Assembly (NCBI GenBank): GCA_016786725.1
Contig: JAEUVU010000017.1
Location: 1-64,000, forward strand
Reading direction: 5' to 3'
Length of the DNA: 64,000 nt
DNA from: Ferruginibacter sp.
GTDB lineage: Bacteria; Bacteroidota; Bacteroidia; Chitinophagales; Chitinophagaceae
Part shown: positions 2,023-11,465 of the stretch, one piece after another
Layout: the number at the start of each line of letters is the position of its first letter
Numbering within the stretch: position 1 is the first letter of the stretch
Notes under the pieces: generated by a model
Database searches by the model: none
What the model saw: only the letters and a program-made list of their open reading frames with translations
Told to the model about the DNA's origin: nothing
Position numbers and translations under genes: made by a program

Positions 2023-2069
2023 TTTTTATCCTTTGTAAAAAATAGGCCCTGGTTTCCGCAATAGTTTTG
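2023..2069 (+). promoter_or_regulatory. Operator-plus-promoter module, copy 1
   Basis: TTTTTATCCTTTGTAAAAAA (2023-2042) is followed at fixed distance by the -7 box TAGTTTTG (2062-2069). The A of ATC and the T of TAG are 34 bases apart, exactly as in the copies at 2500 and 4005. The element starts just after the stop of the Crp/Fnr gene and leads to the DUF1272 gene at 2113. The A/T arms are symmetric and centre about 40 bases before the expected transcription start. Confidence 0.65.
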
Positions 2070-2112
2070 CCCGTAATTTATTGTTATCACTATTCAAAAA
2101 TCATTTTAAATT

Positions 2113-2403
2113 ATGTTAGAAATAAGACCAGTTTGTGAACACTGCGGAAAAAATCTTCTTGCAAACAGTACCGAAGCAATGATTTGTTCATTTGAGTGTA
2201 CTTTTTGTAAAGACTGCACAGATACTGTATTGCATAATGTCTGCCCCAATTGCGGAGGCGGTTTGCAAATGAGGCCGGTGAGGCCGCAGGAGATGCTAAT
2301 AAAACATCCTCCGGTTACATTAAAAATTCACAACCCGGTAAAACCGGAACAGTTTAAACTTCTGTTTACAAAGTATAAAGATATACTACCGGAAAAAAGA
2401 TAA
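2113..2403 (+). CDS. DUF1272 small zinc-ribbon protein
   Basis: This 96-residue protein matches the DUF1272 family: residues 1-56 carry CEHC, then ICSFECTFCKDC and CPNCGGG, a set of cysteine pairs expected to bind zinc. Residues after 60 form a short tail without a clear fold. The molecular function of DUF1272 proteins is not established; they often sit beside regulators and small detoxification genes. It has its own promoter module (2023-2069), so it is probably controlled together with the HXXEE and beta-barrel genes further down. The start ATG follows an A/T-rich leader without a strong Shine-Dalgarno, which is normal in this phylum. Confidence 0.88.
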   Translation: MLEIRPVCEHCGKNLLANSTEAMICSFECTFCKDCTDTVLHNVCPNCGGGLQMRPVRPQEMLIKHPPVTLKIHNPVKPEQFKLLFTKYKDILPEKR

Positions 2404-2499
2404 ATACCATATAGCAAGAGACTTTCCATATTTTATAACCACTTTCAAAACAGTAAGTGGTTATTCTTTTTCTGGGAAAAATATTTCTGCTAAAACTTC

Positions 2500-2547
2500 T
2501 TTTTTATCATTTGTAAAAAATCTGCTCAGGTCAGCAAAATAGTTTTG
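2500..2547 (+). promoter_or_regulatory. Operator-plus-promoter module, copy 2
   Basis: TTTTTATCATTTGTAAAAAA (2501-2520) is followed by TAGTTTTG (2540-2547), with the same 34-base spacing as the other two copies. It stands before the HXXEE gene at 2570, which overlaps the CPBP protease gene, so it probably drives both. The surrounding spacer does not match that of copy 1 or copy 3, so the conserved parts appear to be selected. Confidence 0.68.
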
Positions 2548-2569
2548 TGCAAACAAAAAATAATTACAT

Positions 2570-3250
2570 ATGCAAAACTTAACACTCACACAAAAAGCAA
2601 GCCTGGTAATAGCAATTGCCATTTGCATCGTTGCGCCGACCTTCGGATATTTAAAGATTGGACTGGCGCCGGTTATCATTGTTGGCGGCTCTGCCATTAT
2701 CGGATTTTTCTTCTGGTATTTCACCTATCTCAAAAAACCAACTGCCCCAAAAATTATTCTGCCCATTTTCATCTTAGCGGTTGCAGGATTGCAAATTCAT
2801 ATGGTGGAAGAATACTTTACAAGTTTCGGCCCTGCTATTTCAAGAATATTTAATGTGCCATGGACAGAAGAAAGATTCCTGCTGGTATTCATGATGATTT
2901 TGCCGATTATTTATACACTTACTACGCTGGGCTTGTATTACCGTGTTCCGCTGGCAGGATTTGTTGCATGGTTTATTTTCATCGGGCCGGGAGTCGCAGA
3001 GTTCACCCATTTTATTTTCCCGTTGATTGAACCGCATTTTGAGCCGGGCAACATCAACAGTATATCGCAAACCATCAATGGGGCTTTAGTAGAAGACATG
3101 CCTAACTATTATCACAAAACTACTGGCACTTATTATTTCTCCGGCATGTGGACAGCAATATTACCAATGATACCCGGCATCTATGCAATTTACCGTCTCA
3201 CAAAAGAAGCCCGAAAGTCAAGAAAATTAATGTTAGCAGGCAATGAATAA
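2570..3250 (+). CDS. HXXEE-domain membrane protein
   Basis: The 226-residue protein contains the defining motif HMVEEY near residue 69 and about five to six hydrophobic segments (for example residues 11-30, 36-53, 63-80, 100-120 and 128-150). HXXEE proteins are integral membrane proteins of unknown reaction; the His-Glu-Glu motif suggests metal binding, but no activity is proven. The gene follows promoter module 2 and its 3' end overlaps the CPBP gene by 8 bases, so the two are translationally coupled. An overlapping frame at 2545 is rejected because the ATG at 2570 gives the recognised family start. Membership in the same block as the Crp/Fnr regulator suggests a stress or envelope role. Confidence 0.82.
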   Translation: MQNLTLTQKASLVIAIAICIVAPTFGYLKIGLAPVIIVGGSAIIGFFFWYFTYLKKPTAPKIILPIFILAVAGLQIHMVEEYFTSFGPAISRIFNVPWTEERFLLVFMMILPIIYTLTTLGLYYRVPLAGFVAWFIFIGPGVAEFTHFIFPLIEPHFEPGNINSISQTINGALVEDMPNYYHKTTGTYYFSGMWTAILPMIPGIYAIYRLTKEARKSRKLMLAGNE

Positions 3251-3989
3251 GCAAACTGCAAAACTGTATTTGTCATTCACCGCAGCATTTCTTGTAATGC
3301 ATTATACAGGCAAAGCGCTGATGAATCTGCCTTATATTTTTAATGCAGCAATTGTGTCTGTTGCTGTATTGGTTACAGTCCTTTTACTTAATAAATTGGT
3401 TTATGGTAAAGGCATAAAAACATCATTCAATGATATTGGTTTGAGAAAAACAAATTTGCCAGGGCTTGTCCCTGGCATTTTTATTTCCGCAGCATTGCTT
3501 TGCGCTTACCCCTTGCTTGGCGTTTTCTTAAATATAGACATAACGTTAGCTGATGGGTGGCAATTGAATATCATTGGGTTGATGTTTACAGCCGGTGTGG
3601 CGGAAGAAATTTTATTCAGAGGTTATTTGTTCGGCGGTTTAAGAAGAAACATGAATTTCCGTAAAGCCGCTTTCATATCGACAATATGCTTTGCACTTGC
3701 ACATCTTGTTATGTTTACCTATATGGATTGGCCGGTTGCATTGCTTTCAACACTACTTGCTGTTGCCACTTGTATACCACTGGCATTTCTTTTTGAAAAA
3801 GGAAATAATACAGTCTGGAGCCCGGCTATTGTGCATACAGCAATAAGAACCGTCGGATTGGTCGTAACAACAGATGAAAAGCATTTCATGCAATTCTCTA
3901 TGTTATGGATAACTGCCTGCATGATTCTGCCTTATACCGTTCTCATTTTATACAAAGAGTTCAGGACAATTTGGACAAAGCGGTCTTGA
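3243..3989 (+). CDS. CPBP-family intramembrane metalloprotease
   Basis: The 248-residue polytopic protein has the CPBP (Abi/Rce1-like) signature: AEEILFRGYLFGGLRR, then FALAHL, then an Asn/His-type third motif in PAIVHTAIR. The Glu-Glu pair, the His of ALAHL and the His of AIVHT are the expected metal and catalytic residues, so it looks active. Family members are intramembrane glutamic proteases or processing enzymes for prenylated or membrane proteins; the substrate here is unknown. It overlaps the upstream HXXEE gene by 8 bases and shares its promoter. A new promoter module at 4005 separates it from the next gene. Confidence 0.9.
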   Translation: MNKQTAKLYLSFTAAFLVMHYTGKALMNLPYIFNAAIVSVAVLVTVLLLNKLVYGKGIKTSFNDIGLRKTNLPGLVPGIFISAALLCAYPLLGVFLNIDITLADGWQLNIIGLMFTAGVAEEILFRGYLFGGLRRNMNFRKAAFISTICFALAHLVMFTYMDWPVALLSTLLAVATCIPLAFLFEKGNNTVWSPAIVHTAIRTVGLVVTTDEKHFMQFSMLWITACMILPYTVLILYKEFRTIWTKRS

Positions 3990-4004
3990 ACAATACCTAA
4001 ATTG

Positions 4005-4052
4005 TTTTTTATCATTTGTAAAAAAAATTATCCGATTCAATTTTCAGTTTTG
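4005..4052 (+). promoter_or_regulatory. Operator-plus-promoter module, copy 3
   Basis: TTTTTATCATTTGTAAAAAA (4006-4025) precedes CAGTTTTG (4045-4052), one base off the TAnnTTTG box, with the same 34-base spacing as copies 1 and 2. It leads to the secreted barrel-like gene at 4090 and probably the nitroreductase-like gene coupled to it. The operator is identical to copy 2 over 20 bases. Confidence 0.65.
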
Positions 4053-4089: not shown

Positions 4090-4659
4090 ATGAAAAAGTA
4101 TTTTCTGGCTCTGTTAATGATGACAGCAGCATTTGCCAATGCGCAAACAAAAGAAAACAAACCCAAATTTTCAATCGGCGCAGAAGCGGATGTATTGCCC
4201 TACATAACTGGTGGTTACTATGGCTCTGTGTGGGCATCTAAAAATCATTTCCGTTACAGGGCTGTTATTACAAATGTAACCACACCCGAGTTTATGCTCA
4301 AAGACGGATTCACCAACAATAAAATGATGGTATATGCCGCATTGATTGACTATTTTTTTAAACCCACAACTGAAAAATGGTGGATTGGTTCAGGCTTTGA
4401 ATATTGGGATGCAGAAATACAAACCTCTCAAAAGATTTCCACGATAAAATACAACAACACCATGTTCACTGTTGGCGGCGGATATGTATGGAAATTTTAT
4501 AAAAATTTCTACCTGAACCCCTGGGCAGCAGCGCATGTAAGAATTGCCGGTGATAAAAGCGTAATGGTGGATGGAAAAAAGTTTGAACCTTCGTTATTTA
4601 TTCCAGAGGCTTCTTTAAAAGTCGGATGGTATTTCAACACAAAAAAAATAAAGCCATGA
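4090..4659 (+). CDS. Secreted protein, probable small outer-membrane barrel
   Basis: The protein has 189 residues with a signal peptide (residues 1-19, cleaved after FANA-Q). The mature part alternates aromatic and polar residues with many Tyr, Trp and Phe (GGYYGSVWASKNHF, EKWWIGSGFEYWDAEI, GGGYVWKFYKNFYLNPW), as in short eight-strand outer-membrane barrels. I cannot assign a named family. The gene follows promoter module 3 and its TGA overlaps the start of the next gene (ATGA), so the two are translated together. A role as an envelope component of the same Crp/Fnr-linked response is an inference from position. Confidence 0.72.
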   Translation: MKKYFLALLMMTAAFANAQTKENKPKFSIGAEADVLPYITGGYYGSVWASKNHFRYRAVITNVTTPEFMLKDGFTNNKMMVYAALIDYFFKPTTEKWWIGSGFEYWDAEIQTSQKISTIKYNNTMFTVGGGYVWKFYKNFYLNPWAAAHVRIAGDKSVMVDGKKFEPSLFIPEASLKVGWYFNTKKIKP

Positions 4660-5774
4660 ACAGAAGAAAATTTTTAAGTCTTGCCGGGGCTTCTGTTGTT
4701 GTGGTGGCAGGCACAACTTATCTGTTAAGTGACAGGCAACATTTTGTAAGAGATGATATAAAGGGAAATAATAACAATAAACTCCCTTTAAAACCGGACG
4801 AAAAAGAAATACTGTACCTGGCATCATTAGCTCCAAGCGGACACAATACACAACCTTGGATTGTAAAATATTTAGAACCGTATCATTGGATAATTTCCAA
4901 CGATAAAACAAAGTGGCTTCCTGCAGTTGATCCAACACAAAGGGAAACTATTTTATCCATTGGTGCATTTATTCAGAACCTTGAATATGCAGCGGCCATT
5001 CTTGGGTACAGTTGTGAGTTTTCCCTGCTTGCATTGAACAACCAAGATGAAGATATTATAGAAGCAAAACTTAAAAAAACAACCAACAAGGTTTCATTTG
5101 ATACAAAGGCGATAAAACTAAGAAGAACAGTAAGGTCGGGTTATATGAAAGAACCTTTAAAGAAAGAGCATGTTGCATTTCTTACTGGTCATGACAAAGA
5201 TTACTTTCATTTTTTTTCAAACAATTCAAAAGAGTACTGTTGGCTAAATGAGCAAACCATTGAAGCCAACAGACAGCAAACGTTCCGTGATGCTGCACAG
5301 TCAGAACTGGCAGACTGGATGAGGTTGTCAAGCAAGGAAGCAAAAAAATATTGCGACGGATTGACAACCGCCAGCATGGAAATAAACGGAATGCCGGGCT
5401 GGGTAGTGCGTAATTTTTATTCTAAGAAAGATGTAATGGGTAAAAAATTCAGAGAGCAGGGGTTGGATAAAGTTAAAGAACAGGTTGGTAGTTCAGGAGG
5501 ATGGTTACTAATTACAAGCAAAGACAATTCTGCATCAACACTGATTGAGACAGGCAAACGGTTGCAAAGAATGCTTTTAAAAACAAGGGAGAAAAGTATA
5601 GCCATTCATCCCATGACACAGATACTTGAAGAAGCTGAATACAGGAATGAATTGAATCAATCAATTGGTATTTCAAATACTGTTCAGTTCATCCTGCGGG
5701 CAGGCTATGTAAAAAATTATCCAGACCCCGTTTCTTTGAGAAGGCCGGTGGAAAGGTTTGTAAAGATTCAGTAA
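4656..5774 (+). CDS. Nitroreductase-family protein of the Acg type, Tat-exported
   Basis: I use the ATG at 4656, which overlaps the previous stop as ATGA; the longer frame from 4626 only adds ten residues before the twin-arginine signal. The N-terminus NRRKFLSLAGASVVVVAG is a Tat signal with RR-K-FL, so a folded, cofactor-bearing protein is exported. Residues around 55-110 carry the FMN-contact part of Acg-like nitroreductases (LASLAPSGHNTQPW, then VDPTQRETILSIGAF), and the C-terminal half repeats the fold (SSGGWLLITSKD). The length, 372 residues, fits the double-domain Acg family. The substrate is unknown; some family members are thought to bind flavin without turning over substrate. Confidence 0.83.
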   Translation: MNRRKFLSLAGASVVVVAGTTYLLSDRQHFVRDDIKGNNNNKLPLKPDEKEILYLASLAPSGHNTQPWIVKYLEPYHWIISNDKTKWLPAVDPTQRETILSIGAFIQNLEYAAAILGYSCEFSLLALNNQDEDIIEAKLKKTTNKVSFDTKAIKLRRTVRSGYMKEPLKKEHVAFLTGHDKDYFHFFSNNSKEYCWLNEQTIEANRQQTFRDAAQSELADWMRLSSKEAKKYCDGLTTASMEINGMPGWVVRNFYSKKDVMGKKFREQGLDKVKEQVGSSGGWLLITSKDNSASTLIETGKRLQRMLLKTREKSIAIHPMTQILEEAEYRNELNQSIGISNTVQFILRAGYVKNYPDPVSLRRPVERFVKIQ

Positions 5775-5787
5775 GACATGAGGTTTG

Positions 5788-5811
5788 ATGATAACAAAGT
5801 ATAGTTATCAT
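5788..5811. promoter_or_regulatory. Perfect 8-bp inverted repeat before the epoxide-hydrolase gene
   Basis: ATGATAAC and GTTATCAT are exact reverse complements separated by eight bases. The element lies 13 bases before the start at 5825 and is followed by TTAAAAAAG. It may be an operator or a weak terminator; the spacing resembles a two-turn dimer site. It differs from the ATCATTTGT modules upstream, though it contains ATCATT. Confidence 0.5.
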
Positions 5812-5824
5812 TAAAAAAGTAATT

Positions 5825-6970
5825 ATGGCCAAGAGCAATTCAATTAAATCAATGACAGTTTATATTCCTGACAAGGAAATTGATGCCCTCAAACTCAGGT
5901 TAAAGCTAACAAGGTGGCCCTCTCCAATTGAAAGTTCAAACTGGGCGGATGGAACAGATAGTAATTATTTACGCAGCCTTGTTGATTATTGGGCAGACCA
6001 ATATAACTGGAGAGAACGGGAGAAGAGAATTAATTCATACAATCACTTTGTCGCCGAGGTAGAAGGTACAAATATTCATTTCATTCATGAAAAAGGTAAA
6101 GGCGAAAATCCAATACCTCTGTTGTTGATGCAGGGTTGGCCGAGCAGTTTTATTCAGATGCTTGATATTATTCCGTTACTTACCGAAAGCAGGCAAGATG
6201 GTACGCCTTCATTTGATGTTGTCGCTGCATCATTGCCCGGGTATCCCTTTTCTCAAATTCCAGTCAAACATGGTATGAGTTTTTTCAAAATAGCACAGTT
6301 AATGAAAAAACTGATGGTTGAAGAATTGGGCTACCAAAAATTTGCGATGAGAGGTTCAGACCAGGGTGCATTGGTACAACAACAGGTAGCTCTTAAATTT
6401 CCTGAACATGTAATTGGGATTCACAGAACGGGGATTACTCCGTTTCTTAATCCTTTGTCCGATAATTTAACTGATGCAGAAATTTCATATCAGCAAAAAG
6501 TTGCAGCATGGGCTAAGACAGAAACAGCTTATGCCGACATACACGGCTTACGACCAGAAACAATAACTCCGGCTTTAGCCGATTCACCCGTTGGCCTTGC
6601 AAGCTGGATAATTGAGAAATTTCATAGATGGGGTGATTGTAATAGAGATATTGATTCCCATTTCGGGAGAGATAAATTACTTGATAATCTTTCCTTGCAT
6701 TGGTTTATGGGTTCAGGCGCTGCTTCAATAAGACTTTATCATGAAATGTCGCATGACCCTGGTTTAACAGGACGAATTAATTTGCCGACAGCAATTATAA
6801 TGCCTTTGCATGATGGCATAACTGTACCTGCGCCAAAAGAGTGGACCGAACGGTTTTACAATGTTCAACTCTGGACTGTAATGGAACGGGGCGGCCATTT
6901 TCCTGAATGGGAAATACCCAATGAAACGGCTGATGATATAAGGCGTTTTTTTATGACAATTACTAAATAA
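5825..6970 (+). CDS. Epoxide-hydrolase-family alpha/beta hydrolase
   Basis: The 381-residue protein has the N-terminal EHN domain (residues about 12-118, with WADQYNWRERE) followed by an alpha/beta-hydrolase core, the layout of microsomal-type epoxide hydrolases. The nucleophile elbow reads MRGSDQGA with Asp at 179; most relatives have a Trp where Gln stands. The oxyanion motif is MQGWPSSF (about 102-109) and the catalytic His is in GGHFPEWE (about 358). Family members open epoxides to diols through an aspartyl ester. There is no signal peptide, so it acts in the cytoplasm. It is the last gene of the large cassette and ends 44 bases before the attC-like repeat 2. Confidence 0.88.
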   Translation: MAKSNSIKSMTVYIPDKEIDALKLRLKLTRWPSPIESSNWADGTDSNYLRSLVDYWADQYNWREREKRINSYNHFVAEVEGTNIHFIHEKGKGENPIPLLLMQGWPSSFIQMLDIIPLLTESRQDGTPSFDVVAASLPGYPFSQIPVKHGMSFFKIAQLMKKLMVEELGYQKFAMRGSDQGALVQQQVALKFPEHVIGIHRTGITPFLNPLSDNLTDAEISYQQKVAAWAKTETAYADIHGLRPETITPALADSPVGLASWIIEKFHRWGDCNRDIDSHFGRDKLLDNLSLHWFMGSGAASIRLYHEMSHDPGLTGRINLPTAIIMPLHDGITVPAPKEWTERFYNVQLWTVMERGGHFPEWEIPNETADDIRRFFMTITK

Positions 6971-7014
6971 GACGCATCATATTTTTATGTGTAAAAGCGG
7001 ACTGACCCAAAGTA

Positions 7015-7214
7015 TGCGGCTAACATTGGTATTGCCAAAATGCAGGCTGACGGAAGCCGTGTTTCAACTGTTGTAATTCTGTTGGGCAGCATATCCAGCT
7101 TGACGTTATCTATTTAGCTATGTGCATATTATCATCTTTTTTATCTTTACCCAGCAGCAGTTAGCCGGGGCTGCTATTTCCCTGTTCTGCGCCAAGCCCT
7201 GGCCGTTGGCAGTA
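7015..7214 (+). repeat. attC-like repeat 2
   Basis: The element begins with TGCGGCTAAC (7015-7024) and ends with GTTGGCAGTA (7205-7214). The start is the exact reverse complement of the end of repeat 1, and the end is the exact reverse complement of the start of repeat 3. Its left arm (ATTGGTATTGCC) resembles that of repeat 4, while its right arm (GCCAAGCCCTGGCCGTTGG) resembles that of repeat 1. The interval 6971-7274 holds only this element and a short spacer; I see no gene there. Confidence 0.7.
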
Positions 7215-7274
7215 ATGCTAAGACGCCCGTAGATTGACAATAAAACCCAAACGAATAGAACGAAAAAAAGAAAA

Positions 7275-8952: not shown

Positions 8953-8965
8953 TGCTGAAAAGCAC

Positions 8966-9168
8966 TACTGCCAACAAAAGGTTTGCCGCAAGGCTGGCGG
9001 ACGGAATAACAATCGTCAGTTGTACTGCTATCAGCTAATATCTGGCTTGACCGAATTCTATTTGGCATTTAGTTGTTAACTTCAACCTCAGTTTTTCAAT
9101 GGGCTTCAGTTGCCGGGCAGACAGTTATAAAATACCAGCCCTGCGGCAAGCCTCGAACGTTGTAGGCA
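8966..9168 (+). repeat. attC-like repeat 3
   Basis: The element starts with TACTGCCAAC (8966-8975) and ends with GTTGTAGGCA (9159-9168). Its inner arms GGTTTGCCGCAAGGCTGG and CCAGCCCTGCGGCAAGCC pair at 16 of 18 positions, the best hairpin of the set. The middle is closely similar to repeat 1, and the right half from about 9087 is nearly identical to the orphan half at 11341. The start pairs 10/10 with the end of repeat 2, and the end pairs 9/10 with the start of repeat 4. Confidence 0.72.
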
Positions 9169-9193
9169 ATAATATAGAAAGATTTCACTACTT

Positions 9194-9219: not shown

Positions 9220-10173
9220 GTGAAGCCACCTTATAATGTAACAACCCAAATTCTCAGACTCGTCAGTGAAGTCTCTCATAAGATTGGAGAAGTAAACGCC
9301 TCTTTTCTAACTAAACAATCACCAGAATTAAGAAAGAGTAATCGCATTAAGACAATTCAAGCTTCTTTGGCAGTTGAGGGAAACACGCTATCAATAGATC
9401 AGATCACAGCAATTATTGAAAATAAAAGAGTCTTAGGGCCAGCTAAAGATATTAAAGAGGTTTCAAACGCTATTGAAGTCTATGAGCACCTTAACAAGTT
9501 CAACCCGTTCTTAGAAAAATCATTCTTATCTGCACATAAACTTTTGATGCACGGGCTAATTAAAAATCCAGGACAATACAGAACATCCGGAGTTGGAATT
9601 GTCAAAGGCTCGCAAGTTGCCCATATAGCTCCCCCTGCAAGCAATGTGCTTTTCTTGATGAATGATTTATTTAACTACATAAGAAATTCTGATGAGTTAA
9701 TTCTCATTAAAAGTTGTGTTTTTCATTATGAAATGGAATTTATTCATCCCTTTTCAGATGGCAATGGGAGAATGGGAAGACTTTGGCAAACCCTTTTACT
9801 AATGACACAATACCCTTTGTTTGAGTTTTTACCATTTGAAACACTGATAAGTAAAAATCAAAAGAAATATTATCAAGCTCTTTCAATAAGCGATAAAAAG
9901 GGTGAATCAACTTCTTTTGTAGAGTTTATGTTAAAGGTTTTAAGTGATTCACTTGATGAGTTACTCAAAGAAAGATCTGGCCCAATATCAAGTCCAGAAA
10001 GAATTCGGATTTTCCTAGCAACAGGAGTAAAAGAGTTTACAAGGAAAAACTACATGAACTATTTTAAAACCATCTCCCCAGCTACTGCCAGTCGAGATTT
10101 GTTATCGGCAGTAAAAGAAAAACTTGTTGAGAAATTCGGCGATAAAAACAATACAACTTATAAGGCTAAGTAA
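9220..10173 (+). CDS. Fic-family protein with N-terminal inhibitory motif
   Basis: The 317-residue protein starts at GTG (MKPPYNVTTQ); no in-frame ATG lies upstream. The inhibitory motif S/T-xxx-E-G/N of class II Fic enzymes is seen as SLAVEG (49-54). The catalytic motif HPFSDGNGRMGR (176-187) is intact, with His176, Asp180 and Arg187, so AMP transfer to a target hydroxyl should be possible once the inhibitory Glu is displaced. Residues after about 255 look like a winged helix (SPATASRDLLSAVKEKLV). The target is unknown. Twin palindromes overlap the start, which suggests autoregulation. The gene is alone between attC-like repeats 3 and 4, with its stop six bases before repeat 4. Confidence 0.93.
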   Translation: MKPPYNVTTQILRLVSEVSHKIGEVNASFLTKQSPELRKSNRIKTIQASLAVEGNTLSIDQITAIIENKRVLGPAKDIKEVSNAIEVYEHLNKFNPFLEKSFLSAHKLLMHGLIKNPGQYRTSGVGIVKGSQVAHIAPPASNVLFLMNDLFNYIRNSDELILIKSCVFHYEMEFIHPFSDGNGRMGRLWQTLLLMTQYPLFEFLPFETLISKNQKKYYQALSISDKKGESTSFVEFMLKVLSDSLDELLKERSGPISSPERIRIFLATGVKEFTRKNYMNYFKTISPATASRDLLSAVKEKLVEKFGDKNNTTYKAK

Positions 10174-10178
10174 ATTAC

Positions 10179-10413
10179 TGCGTACAACATTGGTATTGCC
10201 AATGGGCATGACCAGCAAACATCAGCAAACCTGCCTACCGGCAGGCAGGTTGCAAATCCAGGCTGCGGTTCGGGCTGGACAAGCAACTTTGAGCTTTAGT
10301 TCTTAATTTCAACATCAGTTTTTCAACCTGCCTGCCGGCAGGCAGGTCAGCAGCGGTTGTGGGCGGACGAATAACAATTCCCAACCTGCATAAAGCCCTG
10401 CCCGTTGGTAGCA
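10179..10413 (+). repeat. attC-like repeat 4
   Basis: The element starts with TGCGTACAAC (10179-10188) and ends with GTTGGTAGCA (10404-10413). At 235 bp it is the longest of the set because two copies of a 20-bp palindrome sit inside it (10231-10250 and 10327-10346). Its own inner arms do not pair well: the right arm (CCTGCATAAAGCCCTG) matches the left arm of repeat 5, and the left arm (GGTATTGCCAATGG) matches the right arm of repeat 5 inverted. The conserved middle TTTAGTTCTTAATTTCAAC is present. Confidence 0.66.
10231..10346. repeat. Two CCTGCC...GGCAGG palindromes nested in repeat 4
   Basis: CCTGCCTACCGGCAGGCAGG (10231-10250) and CCTGCCTGCCGGCAGGCAGG (10327-10346) are, respectively, a near-perfect and a perfect 20-bp palindrome. 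A related half copy, CGGCAGGCAGGC, lies at 27229-27240. They look like REP-type short mobile palindromes that entered the attC-like element secondarily, since the other repeats lack them. Confidence 0.6.
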
Positions 10414-10429
10414 ATTGTAAACAAACTTC

Positions 10430-11017
10430 ATGACTCCGAAACAAATTGACCGAATAAAAAAGAAAATAGCCGACATTAAGCGGACACTTGCTGCGGAGAA
10501 AAGAAAGTTTGGGTGTTACGACGACGGCCGTGGACTTCGCTATTTACCTACAAAATATTTCATTCAACTTGCTGACTATTCGGGCGGCTTGACCTATACC
10601 AAGTGGTTTGACAAAAACTTTCCTGACGACGGCGGCTTTCCAGATTTTTTATTCGAGTGTACAATCATTTTATTTAAAACTGGCAAGACAAAAGAAGCTG
10701 AGATAAAAGCATTTCAAACTTTCTGCAGCAATACTTACTTGTTCGACAAATACTTTGGAAGAGAGATTATTCCAATTGACAAATGGGAAGGTTCAAATCT
10801 GCAAACTCCAGCCTTTACCAAATACCTGGACTATTCAAGCGAACAAAATGAGCTTGCAGACTTTAGTAAATGGTTGGACACATTCCTTACGACACAGGAC
10901 TTTACCAATCGAAGCAACAAATTCATTGACATACAGAAAAGATTGATGACTGAAGATGATGCGGAGACTCGACATTATCTGGTTGAGGCAGCAAGTCAAT
11001 TGGAGCAATCAATCTGA
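10430..11017 (+). CDS. Orphan cassette protein, 195 aa
   Basis: I do not recognise a family. The protein is soluble, rich in Lys, Asp, Phe and Tyr, with no signal peptide and no membrane segment. The first 35 residues are basic and probably helical (MTPKQIDRIKKKIADIKRTL). The middle carries FPDDGGFPDFLFECTIILFKTGKTKEAEIKAF, which reads like one TPR-type helix pair. The start is 17 bases after the end of attC-like repeat 4 and the stop 12 bases before repeat 5, the tight packing typical of single-gene integron cassettes, many of which encode unknown proteins. Confidence 0.75.
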   Translation: MTPKQIDRIKKKIADIKRTLAAEKRKFGCYDDGRGLRYLPTKYFIQLADYSGGLTYTKWFDKNFPDDGGFPDFLFECTIILFKTGKTKEAEIKAFQTFCSNTYLFDKYFGREIIPIDKWEGSNLQTPAFTKYLDYSSEQNELADFSKWLDTFLTTQDFTNRSNKFIDIQKRLMTEDDAETRHYLVEAASQLEQSI

Positions 11018-11028
11018 CGCAAAACAAC

Positions 11029-11233
11029 TGCTACCAACATTGGGTTTTATGCAAGGTGGGGCTTGACATTGGAGCAATCAGCAGCAGTAATTCTGTTGTA
11101 CTGCGGTTCGGGGCTCGACGAATAAAGCCCAGCTTTAGTTCTTAATATTTAACTTTATCAAAAAGCCAGGCAGCAGTTCCGGCGGACGGAATTCTAATTC
11201 CCCACCATCGGCAATACCTGCTCGTTATGCCCA
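11029..11233 (+). repeat. attC-like repeat 5
   Basis: The element starts with TGCTACCAAC (11029-11038), an exact reverse complement of the end of repeat 4, and ends with GTTATGCCCA (11224-11233). No matching TGGGCATAAC occurs downstream in the window, so the cassette that followed has lost its own 3' site. The centre keeps TTTAGTTCTTAATATTTAAC. The interval 11018-11522 has no complete gene. Confidence 0.66.
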
Positions 11234-11340
11234 ATGCTAAAACACCACCACAATGGAAATAACAATCCGTAGACAAAATAATAATGACCTTCTGGTGCAA
11301 AATCAAATCAGGTGTGTGAACAACAACACAACAACAACAA
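11234..11340 (+). pseudogene. Remnant of a cassette gene start
   Basis: An ATG at 11253 opens a frame beginning MEITIRRQNNNDLLVQNQI, placed 19 bases after the end of repeat 5, like the start in the cassette before it. After about 22 codons the frame runs into a CAA-rich microsatellite (about 11320-11344) and then into the orphan half repeat, so the frame to 11435 is not a real protein. I read it as the first bases of a lost cassette gene. The original family cannot be named. Confidence 0.35.
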
Positions 11341-11426
11341 CAACTTCAGTTTTTCAATCGGCTTCAGTTACCGGGCTGACAGTTATAAAATACCAGCCCT
11401 GCGGCAAGCCTCGAACGTTGGCTGCT
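11341..11426 (+). repeat. Right half of an attC-like repeat (copy 6)
   Basis: From 11341 to 11416 the sequence follows the right half of repeat 3 almost base for base (CTTCAGTTTTTCAAT, then CAGTTATAAAATACCAGCC and CTGCGGCAAGCCTCGAAC). It ends in GTTGGCTGCT (11417-11426). The left half is missing and replaced by a CAA microsatellite. This marks the right end of the cassette region. Confidence 0.6.
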
Positions 11427-11465
11427 ATCAGCTAAGTAAAACAACACATTGCAATATTCACAACA

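Follow-up and report, generated by a model that had tools for sequence, protein, structure and literature searches.

FNR, the fumarate/nitrate regulator, recognizes TTGAT-N4-ATCAA sites centered at -41.5, the classical class II activator position, and contacts their bases through Glu209, Ser212, and Arg213. Many Crp/Fnr paralogues of the Bacteroidota have no known targets. In this phylum, the Crp-like regulator BT4338/Cur of Bacteroides thetaiotaomicron reads the site wwwTATGTTnTAnAACATAwww (PMC6989115), and a TAnnTTTG promoter box has been placed at -12 to -5 in Flavobacterium psychrophilum (PMC9723704). Co-evolution studies on the IclR, GntR, and MerR families describe correlations between helix residues and operator bases that were used to infer contacts (PMC8222616, PMC4494728, PMC5045206).

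Here we analyze a window of 64,000 nucleotides from Ferruginibacter sp. (contig JAEUVU010000017.1, positions 1 to 64,000), in which a small Crp/Fnr-type gene (crp) heads a block with three copies of one operator-promoter module. All three operators, TTTTTATC-N4-GTAAAAAA, are imperfect 20-bp dyads on the forward strand and start at 2023, 2501, and 4006. Operator 1 (TTTTTATC-CTTT-GTAAAAAA, 2023–2042) lies directly behind the crp stop codon, the same place as in relatives; operators 2 (2501–2520) and 3 (4006–4025) both read TTTTTATC-ATTT-GTAAAAAA. Exactly 39 bp after each operator start follows (T/C)AGTTTTG, a -7 box that reads TAGTTTTG in promoters 1 (2062–2069; the offset is that of relatives) and 2 (2540–2547) and CAGTTTTG, with one mismatch, in promoter 3 (4045–4052). 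The original prediction had placed ATC(C/A)TTTGTAAAAAA at 2028, 2506, and 4011, with (T/C)AGTTTTG at 2062, 2540, and 4045, and all three places were confirmed, the box starting 34 bases after the A of ATC in each. The symmetry it had described, TTTTTA...TAAAAA, stood as a dyad but not in its exact center: relatives favor an even center, TTTTTATC-N4-G(A/T)TAAAAA, which shifts the TTTTTA-N7-TAAAAA reading rightward by half a base. The pattern TTTTTA-N7-TAAAAA-N16..24-TAGTTTTG has two matches in the window where 0.00 are expected, the third module carrying CAGTTTTG in place of TAGTTTTG.

Within this genome the modules are rare. The 19-base core TTTTTATCMTTTGTAAAAA occurs without mismatch at only these three places in the 3.87-Mb genome, and the next-best places have two mismatches. 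When a model of the entire module sequence, trained on 50 modules that include the window's three, was run over the whole genome, it returned those three with E = 7e-9, 4e-7, and 5e-7, and the best place elsewhere scored E = 0.14. The genome scan proposed with the original prediction thus gave only three strong matches, all in the crp block, rather than many copies before unrelated genes lacking the regulator. The spacers between the modules' shared parts are dissimilar (66–79% identity over 47 nt, the common portion being operator plus box), which suggests three sites maintained by selection; on the same grounds, we rejected the view that the module was duplicated recently.

The first gene of the block (1458–2021, + strand, 187 aa) indeed encodes a member of the Crp/Fnr superfamily, as its domain and fold attest. 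Its N-terminal beta domain is of the cNMP-binding type (Pfam cNMP_binding, PF00027, E 1.2e-11; 44.8 bits, cut-off 27.5), and its predicted structure (pLDDT 95.8, modeled with 35 relatives) aligns over residues 1–187 with FNR, GlxR, and CRP chains (Z up to 19.7), including the C-terminal winged helix and recognition helix of the CRP/FNR fold. In a profile alignment to Aliivibrio fischeri FNR, GITQVSLSRI of the recognition helix (GITQVSLSRIR) lies over GLTVETISRL, so that Val178 occupies the place of Glu209, and Ser181 and Arg182 align with Ser212 and Arg213. The protein is not itself an FNR: residues 1–43 contain no cysteine and hence no FNR-type N-terminal cysteine cluster for [4Fe-4S], and it scores 22.5 bits against the FNR subfamily model (cut-off 228). 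Its score against the CRP equivalog model, 21.7 bits, is far below the cut-off of 266. Cys44, Cys113, and His117 are kept in 63, 68, and 71 of 72 orthologues and are candidate sensing residues. Cys113 is mostly lost in paralogues with Glu at the Glu209 place (Glu-type paralogues), and may thus mark the signal of this protein's subgroup.

We wondered how widely the pairing of gene and site extends. From named genomes of Chitinophagaceae, Pedobacter, Mucilaginibacter, Flavobacterium, Tenacibaculum, Hymenobacter, Chryseobacterium, and others, 77 crp relatives were fetched with the 1458–2021 protein. The operator consensus lies within 260 bp behind crp in 66 of them, in many starting about 4 bp past the stop codon, and TAnnTTTG follows at one exact offset in 56 of the 66 operator-bearing loci, against 0.04 expected by chance. 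A reverse search with the module model, using DNA alone over 296 genomes of the family, led back to the same gene: outside this genome, a Crp ORF lies within 1.5 kb of 27 of the 29 top-scoring loci and typically stops 5–11 bp short of the operator, and many of the encoded proteins are only 30–37% identical to the window's. In a half-site-agnostic control, which asked for nothing beyond T/A runs, partial symmetry, and a TTTG at the fixed distance, this frame lay behind 85 of 181 crp genes (47%) versus 7 of 1102 other genes (0.6%), and the window's third module accounts for one of those seven; in the control, the frame is lacking behind about half of the wider set of crp paralogues. A typical Bacteroidota crp-module-YceI unit was also seen in a record titled Candidatus Saccharibacteria (L081), probably a mis-binned Bacteroidota contig. 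The original prediction took a portable regulon that brings its own operator to be unusual, but the crp-operator-target arrangement is common among Bacteroidota, where its targets are exchangeable; what is uncommon is only the form with three promoters. Within open-licence papers and under a restricted search syntax, which makes for weak evidence, we found no description of this operator class or of a layout abutting the stop codon; the same literature yielded nothing on Crp/Fnr proteins with YceI or CMD targets, on Bacteroidetes Crp/Fnr regulons, or on TAnnTTTG together with Crp.

The strongest evidence that the neighboring protein is the binder comes from comparing recognition helices with operators among paralogues that were retrieved solely on protein similarity. 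Their half-sites go with the residue at the Glu209 place: Val with TTATC, Gln with TTACC, Ser with TTGCC, and Glu with TTGAC or TTGAT. Val-type operators read TTTTTATC or in some cases TTTTTAAC, with a less symmetric right arm; Gln-type operators read TTTTTACC-N4-GGTAAAAA, Ser-type TTTTTGCC-N4-GGCAAA, and Glu-type TTTTTGA(C/T)-N4-(G/A)TCAAAAA, which is the FNR type, and the single Thr-type gene has TATTTACC. Within a strict set of 100 genes, the 67 Val genes mostly show ATC or AAC (positions 6–7 are AT in 58 and AA in 6), ACC...GGT occurs in 14 of 17 Gln genes, GAC or GAT in 11 of 13 Glu genes, and GCC...GGC in both Ser genes. Newly fetched genes behaved similarly: both Gln genes were as predicted, and all nine Ser genes had G at position 6 and GGC in the right arm, the left arm being GCC in six and GTC in three. 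On a tree built without the DNA-binding part of the proteins, we counted 8 changes of residue, 15 of operator, and 17 joint changes, compared with 36–42 joint changes for shuffled operators; where the residue changed, then, the operator mostly changed too. The clades are few, and a stricter independent-pairs test of covariation found 1–5 pairs, with only 1–2 supported, too few to reach significance. Since the operator letters track the helix residue, the adjacent protein, and not another, would be the one that reads the site; covariation points to this despite the small number of independent changes and, together with the phylogenetic footprinting, supports the assignment of the motif as the operator of the 1458–2021 protein. 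Two other helix types were seen among L088 and L136 (in their second crp genes), L234, L281, and L282: a Lys-type helix (GMSLKTLTRIR), whose stop codon is followed by (A/T)TATGGTC-N4-GACCACAT, possibly one more operator class, and Arg-type genes with TTTAGAC-N4-GTCC-like sites.

The position of the operator bears on what the bound protein would do. If the box lies at -12 to -5, as TAnnTTTG does in F. psychrophilum (PMC9723704), an operator starting 39 bp before it would span -51 to -32, and the conserved spacing would put the dyad center at -41.5, in agreement with the original prediction of a class II place about 40 bases before the start point. Predicted start points, from the same spacing, are at about 2074, 2552, and 4057 for promoters 1, 2, and 3, giving leaders of 39, 18, and 33 nt. 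None of the three modules has TTTG at the usual -33 distance (19–21 bp from the box), an absence that fits a promoter dependent on an activator; the operator's internal TTTG sits 26 bp from the -7 box.

We consider it quite probable, on the combined sequence evidence, that the locus encodes a local class II Crp/Fnr activator of three promoters. The 1458–2021 product would bind as a dimer to the operators at 2023–2042, 2501–2520, and 4006–4025, each centered 41.5 bp before its predicted start point, where it would stand in for the missing -33 element, could touch RNA polymerase, and would switch on the three -7 TAnnTTTG-type promoters. The outputs would be the DUF1272 protein from the first, a 226-aa membrane protein and a CPBP protease from the second, and a 189-aa protein and an Acg nitroreductase from the third. 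Binding specificity would depend largely on which residue occupies the Glu209 place, here Val. No such operator lies in front of the window's crp, so the wiring would be feed-forward and not autoregulated. Elsewhere the module also precedes crp (L186 and L187–L189), and some of these relatives may be autoregulated; at 4363–6798, L186 carries crp paralogues in tandem, both of which have a module and then a short-chain dehydrogenase gene behind them, with an extra module before one crp. Counting against the explanation, the box of promoter 3 is imperfect, and this promoter is not conserved in the closest relatives, L060 and L061; the small number of clades, the crp paralogues that lack the frame, and the less symmetric right arm of Val-type operators weigh on the same side.

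The same protein and sites could instead serve repression, with a dimer on -51 to -32 blocking polymerase until a signal releases it. The operator does overlap the place of a -33 element, and Crp/Fnr proteins are able to repress, BT4338 of Bacteroides acting both ways (PMC6989115). Repressors, however, tolerate varied positions, whereas here the center is exactly -41.5 and the helical phase is fixed in 56 of 66 loci; moreover, the usual 19–21-bp TTTG is missing, just as it would be from an activator-dependent promoter. We therefore regard repression as unlikely.

Readings in which the local protein does not bind fare worse. That TTTG and A/T runs precede TAnnTTTG could mean that the motif is a generic part of housekeeping-sigma promoters, a -33 TTTG with an A/T-rich UP-like element, and crp a mere neighbor. 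At 26 bp from the -7 box this TTTG is too far away, just three such modules exist in the genome, the frame lies behind 47% of crp genes but 0.6% of others, and the operator letters track the crp helix residue; given this spacing and rarity, we reject a generic sigma promoter as very improbable. We give equally little credence to the operators being read by another Crp/Fnr paralogue while the local protein has a different role. Several further crp homologues are encoded in the genome, but one of them, at position 52485 of contig C22, is of the Glu type and is followed by a TTTTTGAC-N4-ATCAAAAA site of its own, and the window's three sites fit the local Val-type helix.

With local activation as the preferred reading, the genes behind the promoters, all on the + strand, become candidate targets. 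Promoter 1 precedes a 96-aa DUF1272 protein (2113–2403; PF06906, E 5e-28). Promoter 2 precedes the core target, a 226-aa membrane protein (2570–3250) whose homologues follow crp and a module in more than 12 relatives, with the module before this gene kept in L060, L061, and others; it has conserved HxxEE and FTHFIFP motifs, no Pfam match, and a predicted structure (mean pLDDT 70.6) without a useful fold match. Overlapping it is the gene for a CPBP (Rce1-like) intramembrane protease (3243–3989; PF02517, E 8e-15), which is probably co-transcribed with it. Behind promoter 3 come a predicted exported protein of 189 aa (4090–4659) with only a weak DUF4421 match and an Acg (Rv3131-type) FMN-binding nitroreductase-like protein (4656–5774; NF047509, 235.9 bits, cut-off 199). 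An epoxide-hydrolase-like gene (5825–6970; Pfam EHN, E 1e-34) was not found in the L060 and L061 blocks and is an uncertain member.

The order crp, DUF1272, 226-aa protein, CPBP, 189-aa protein, Acg is kept in Chitinophagaceae bacterium LGM1 (L061; CP075895), and in L060 without DUF1272. L061 has modules before DUF1272 and before the membrane protein, and L060 has one, before the membrane protein, where the offset is longer by one base; the module at 4006, the third, is absent at this place from both and belongs to the window only. What is unusual here is the three-promoter version of the crp-operator-target unit. Multi-module clusters occur elsewhere with other crp paralogues. Behind the unit in other genomes lie genes for the 226-aa (~220-aa) protein, YceI, AhpD-core/CMD (AhpD-like peroxidase), DoxX, DUF1801/OmdA, a deiodinase/AhpC-like protein, and unnamed families. 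The AhpD, Acg, and AhpC-like targets suggest a role in redox or electrophile stress, and the signal would be of this stress type. Overall, the sequence evidence supports the locus as a putative self-contained local Crp/Fnr regulon.

The block lies between two attC-like repeats with GCTAAC...GTTAGC-type ends, so that it could plausibly be called portable. The upstream repeat (1203–1424, +) is 84% identical to 8957–9178, and the downstream one (6995–7222, +) has a copy on contig C16 (L258, 1278–1437) with which it shares 92.5% identity over 160 bases. The series at the start of the window's contig (C3) continues through 8957–9178, 10172–10425, 11010–11245, and 11330–11440, separating the crp block, an HxlR-pirin-DoxX block, a possible Fic-domain gene, and a hypothetical gene, and is possibly an integron-like cassette array. 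The bottom-strand folding energy of two repeats was no better than that of shuffles, giving no sign of an attC hairpin. Contigs end near these repeats. Near the repeat copy on C16, a 398-aa XerA/integron-like tyrosine recombinase is encoded at 4216–5409 on the minus strand (173.6 bits against integrase_gron, whose cut-off of 265 it does not reach), and recombinase and repeat stand beside DNA methyltransferase- and Vsr-type-looking genes.

More generally, we think it somewhat more probable than its opposite that, across the Bacteroidota, small Crp/Fnr genes carry an operator-promoter against their stop codon, that regulator and site form one unit with swappable targets, and that a single helix-residue change (Val, Gln, Ser, Glu) goes with a re-keyed operator, which would provide matched pairs for reading the Crp/Fnr recognition code. 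That the layout is common in the phylum makes the locus less surprising and the pattern more valuable, and since every crp gene comes with a site of its own, matched pairs can be gathered in large numbers. Should the rule hold, the bases behind the stop codon would reveal both target and operator for many Crp/Fnr paralogues, the helix-operator link could be tested by exchanging a single residue and, in each half-site, two base pairs, and orthogonal activator-promoter pairs would be ready for a phylum with few genetic tools.

Compared with known systems, the closest solved sequence relative is 3dn7 (E 7.5e-25), a cyclic-nucleotide-binding regulatory protein of Cytophaga hutchinsonii from structural genomics, whose recognition helix differs and whose entry title names no operator or function. 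CrpR1 of Riemerella anatipestifer is a small Bacteroidota Crp-type regulator and was studied through mutants, with no operator given in the passages retrieved (PMC13277301). The IclR, GntR, and MerR studies concern other families and not Crp/Fnr genes with an operator abutting the stop codon. BT4338/Cur shares with the window's protein its phylum, its Crp-like character, and a site upstream of the -7 box (PMC6989115), but its regulon is global, its gene does not lie beside each target, and the window's operators are TTTTTATC-N4-GTAAAAAA rather than the Cur site. FNR is alike in fold (Z 19.7), in 5-bp core half-sites separated by N4, in the class II place, and in the serine and arginine matched by Ser181 and Arg182; the window's protein differs from it in having Val for Glu209, a TTATC rather than a TTGAT half-site, no N-terminal cysteine cluster, and a local instead of a global regulon.
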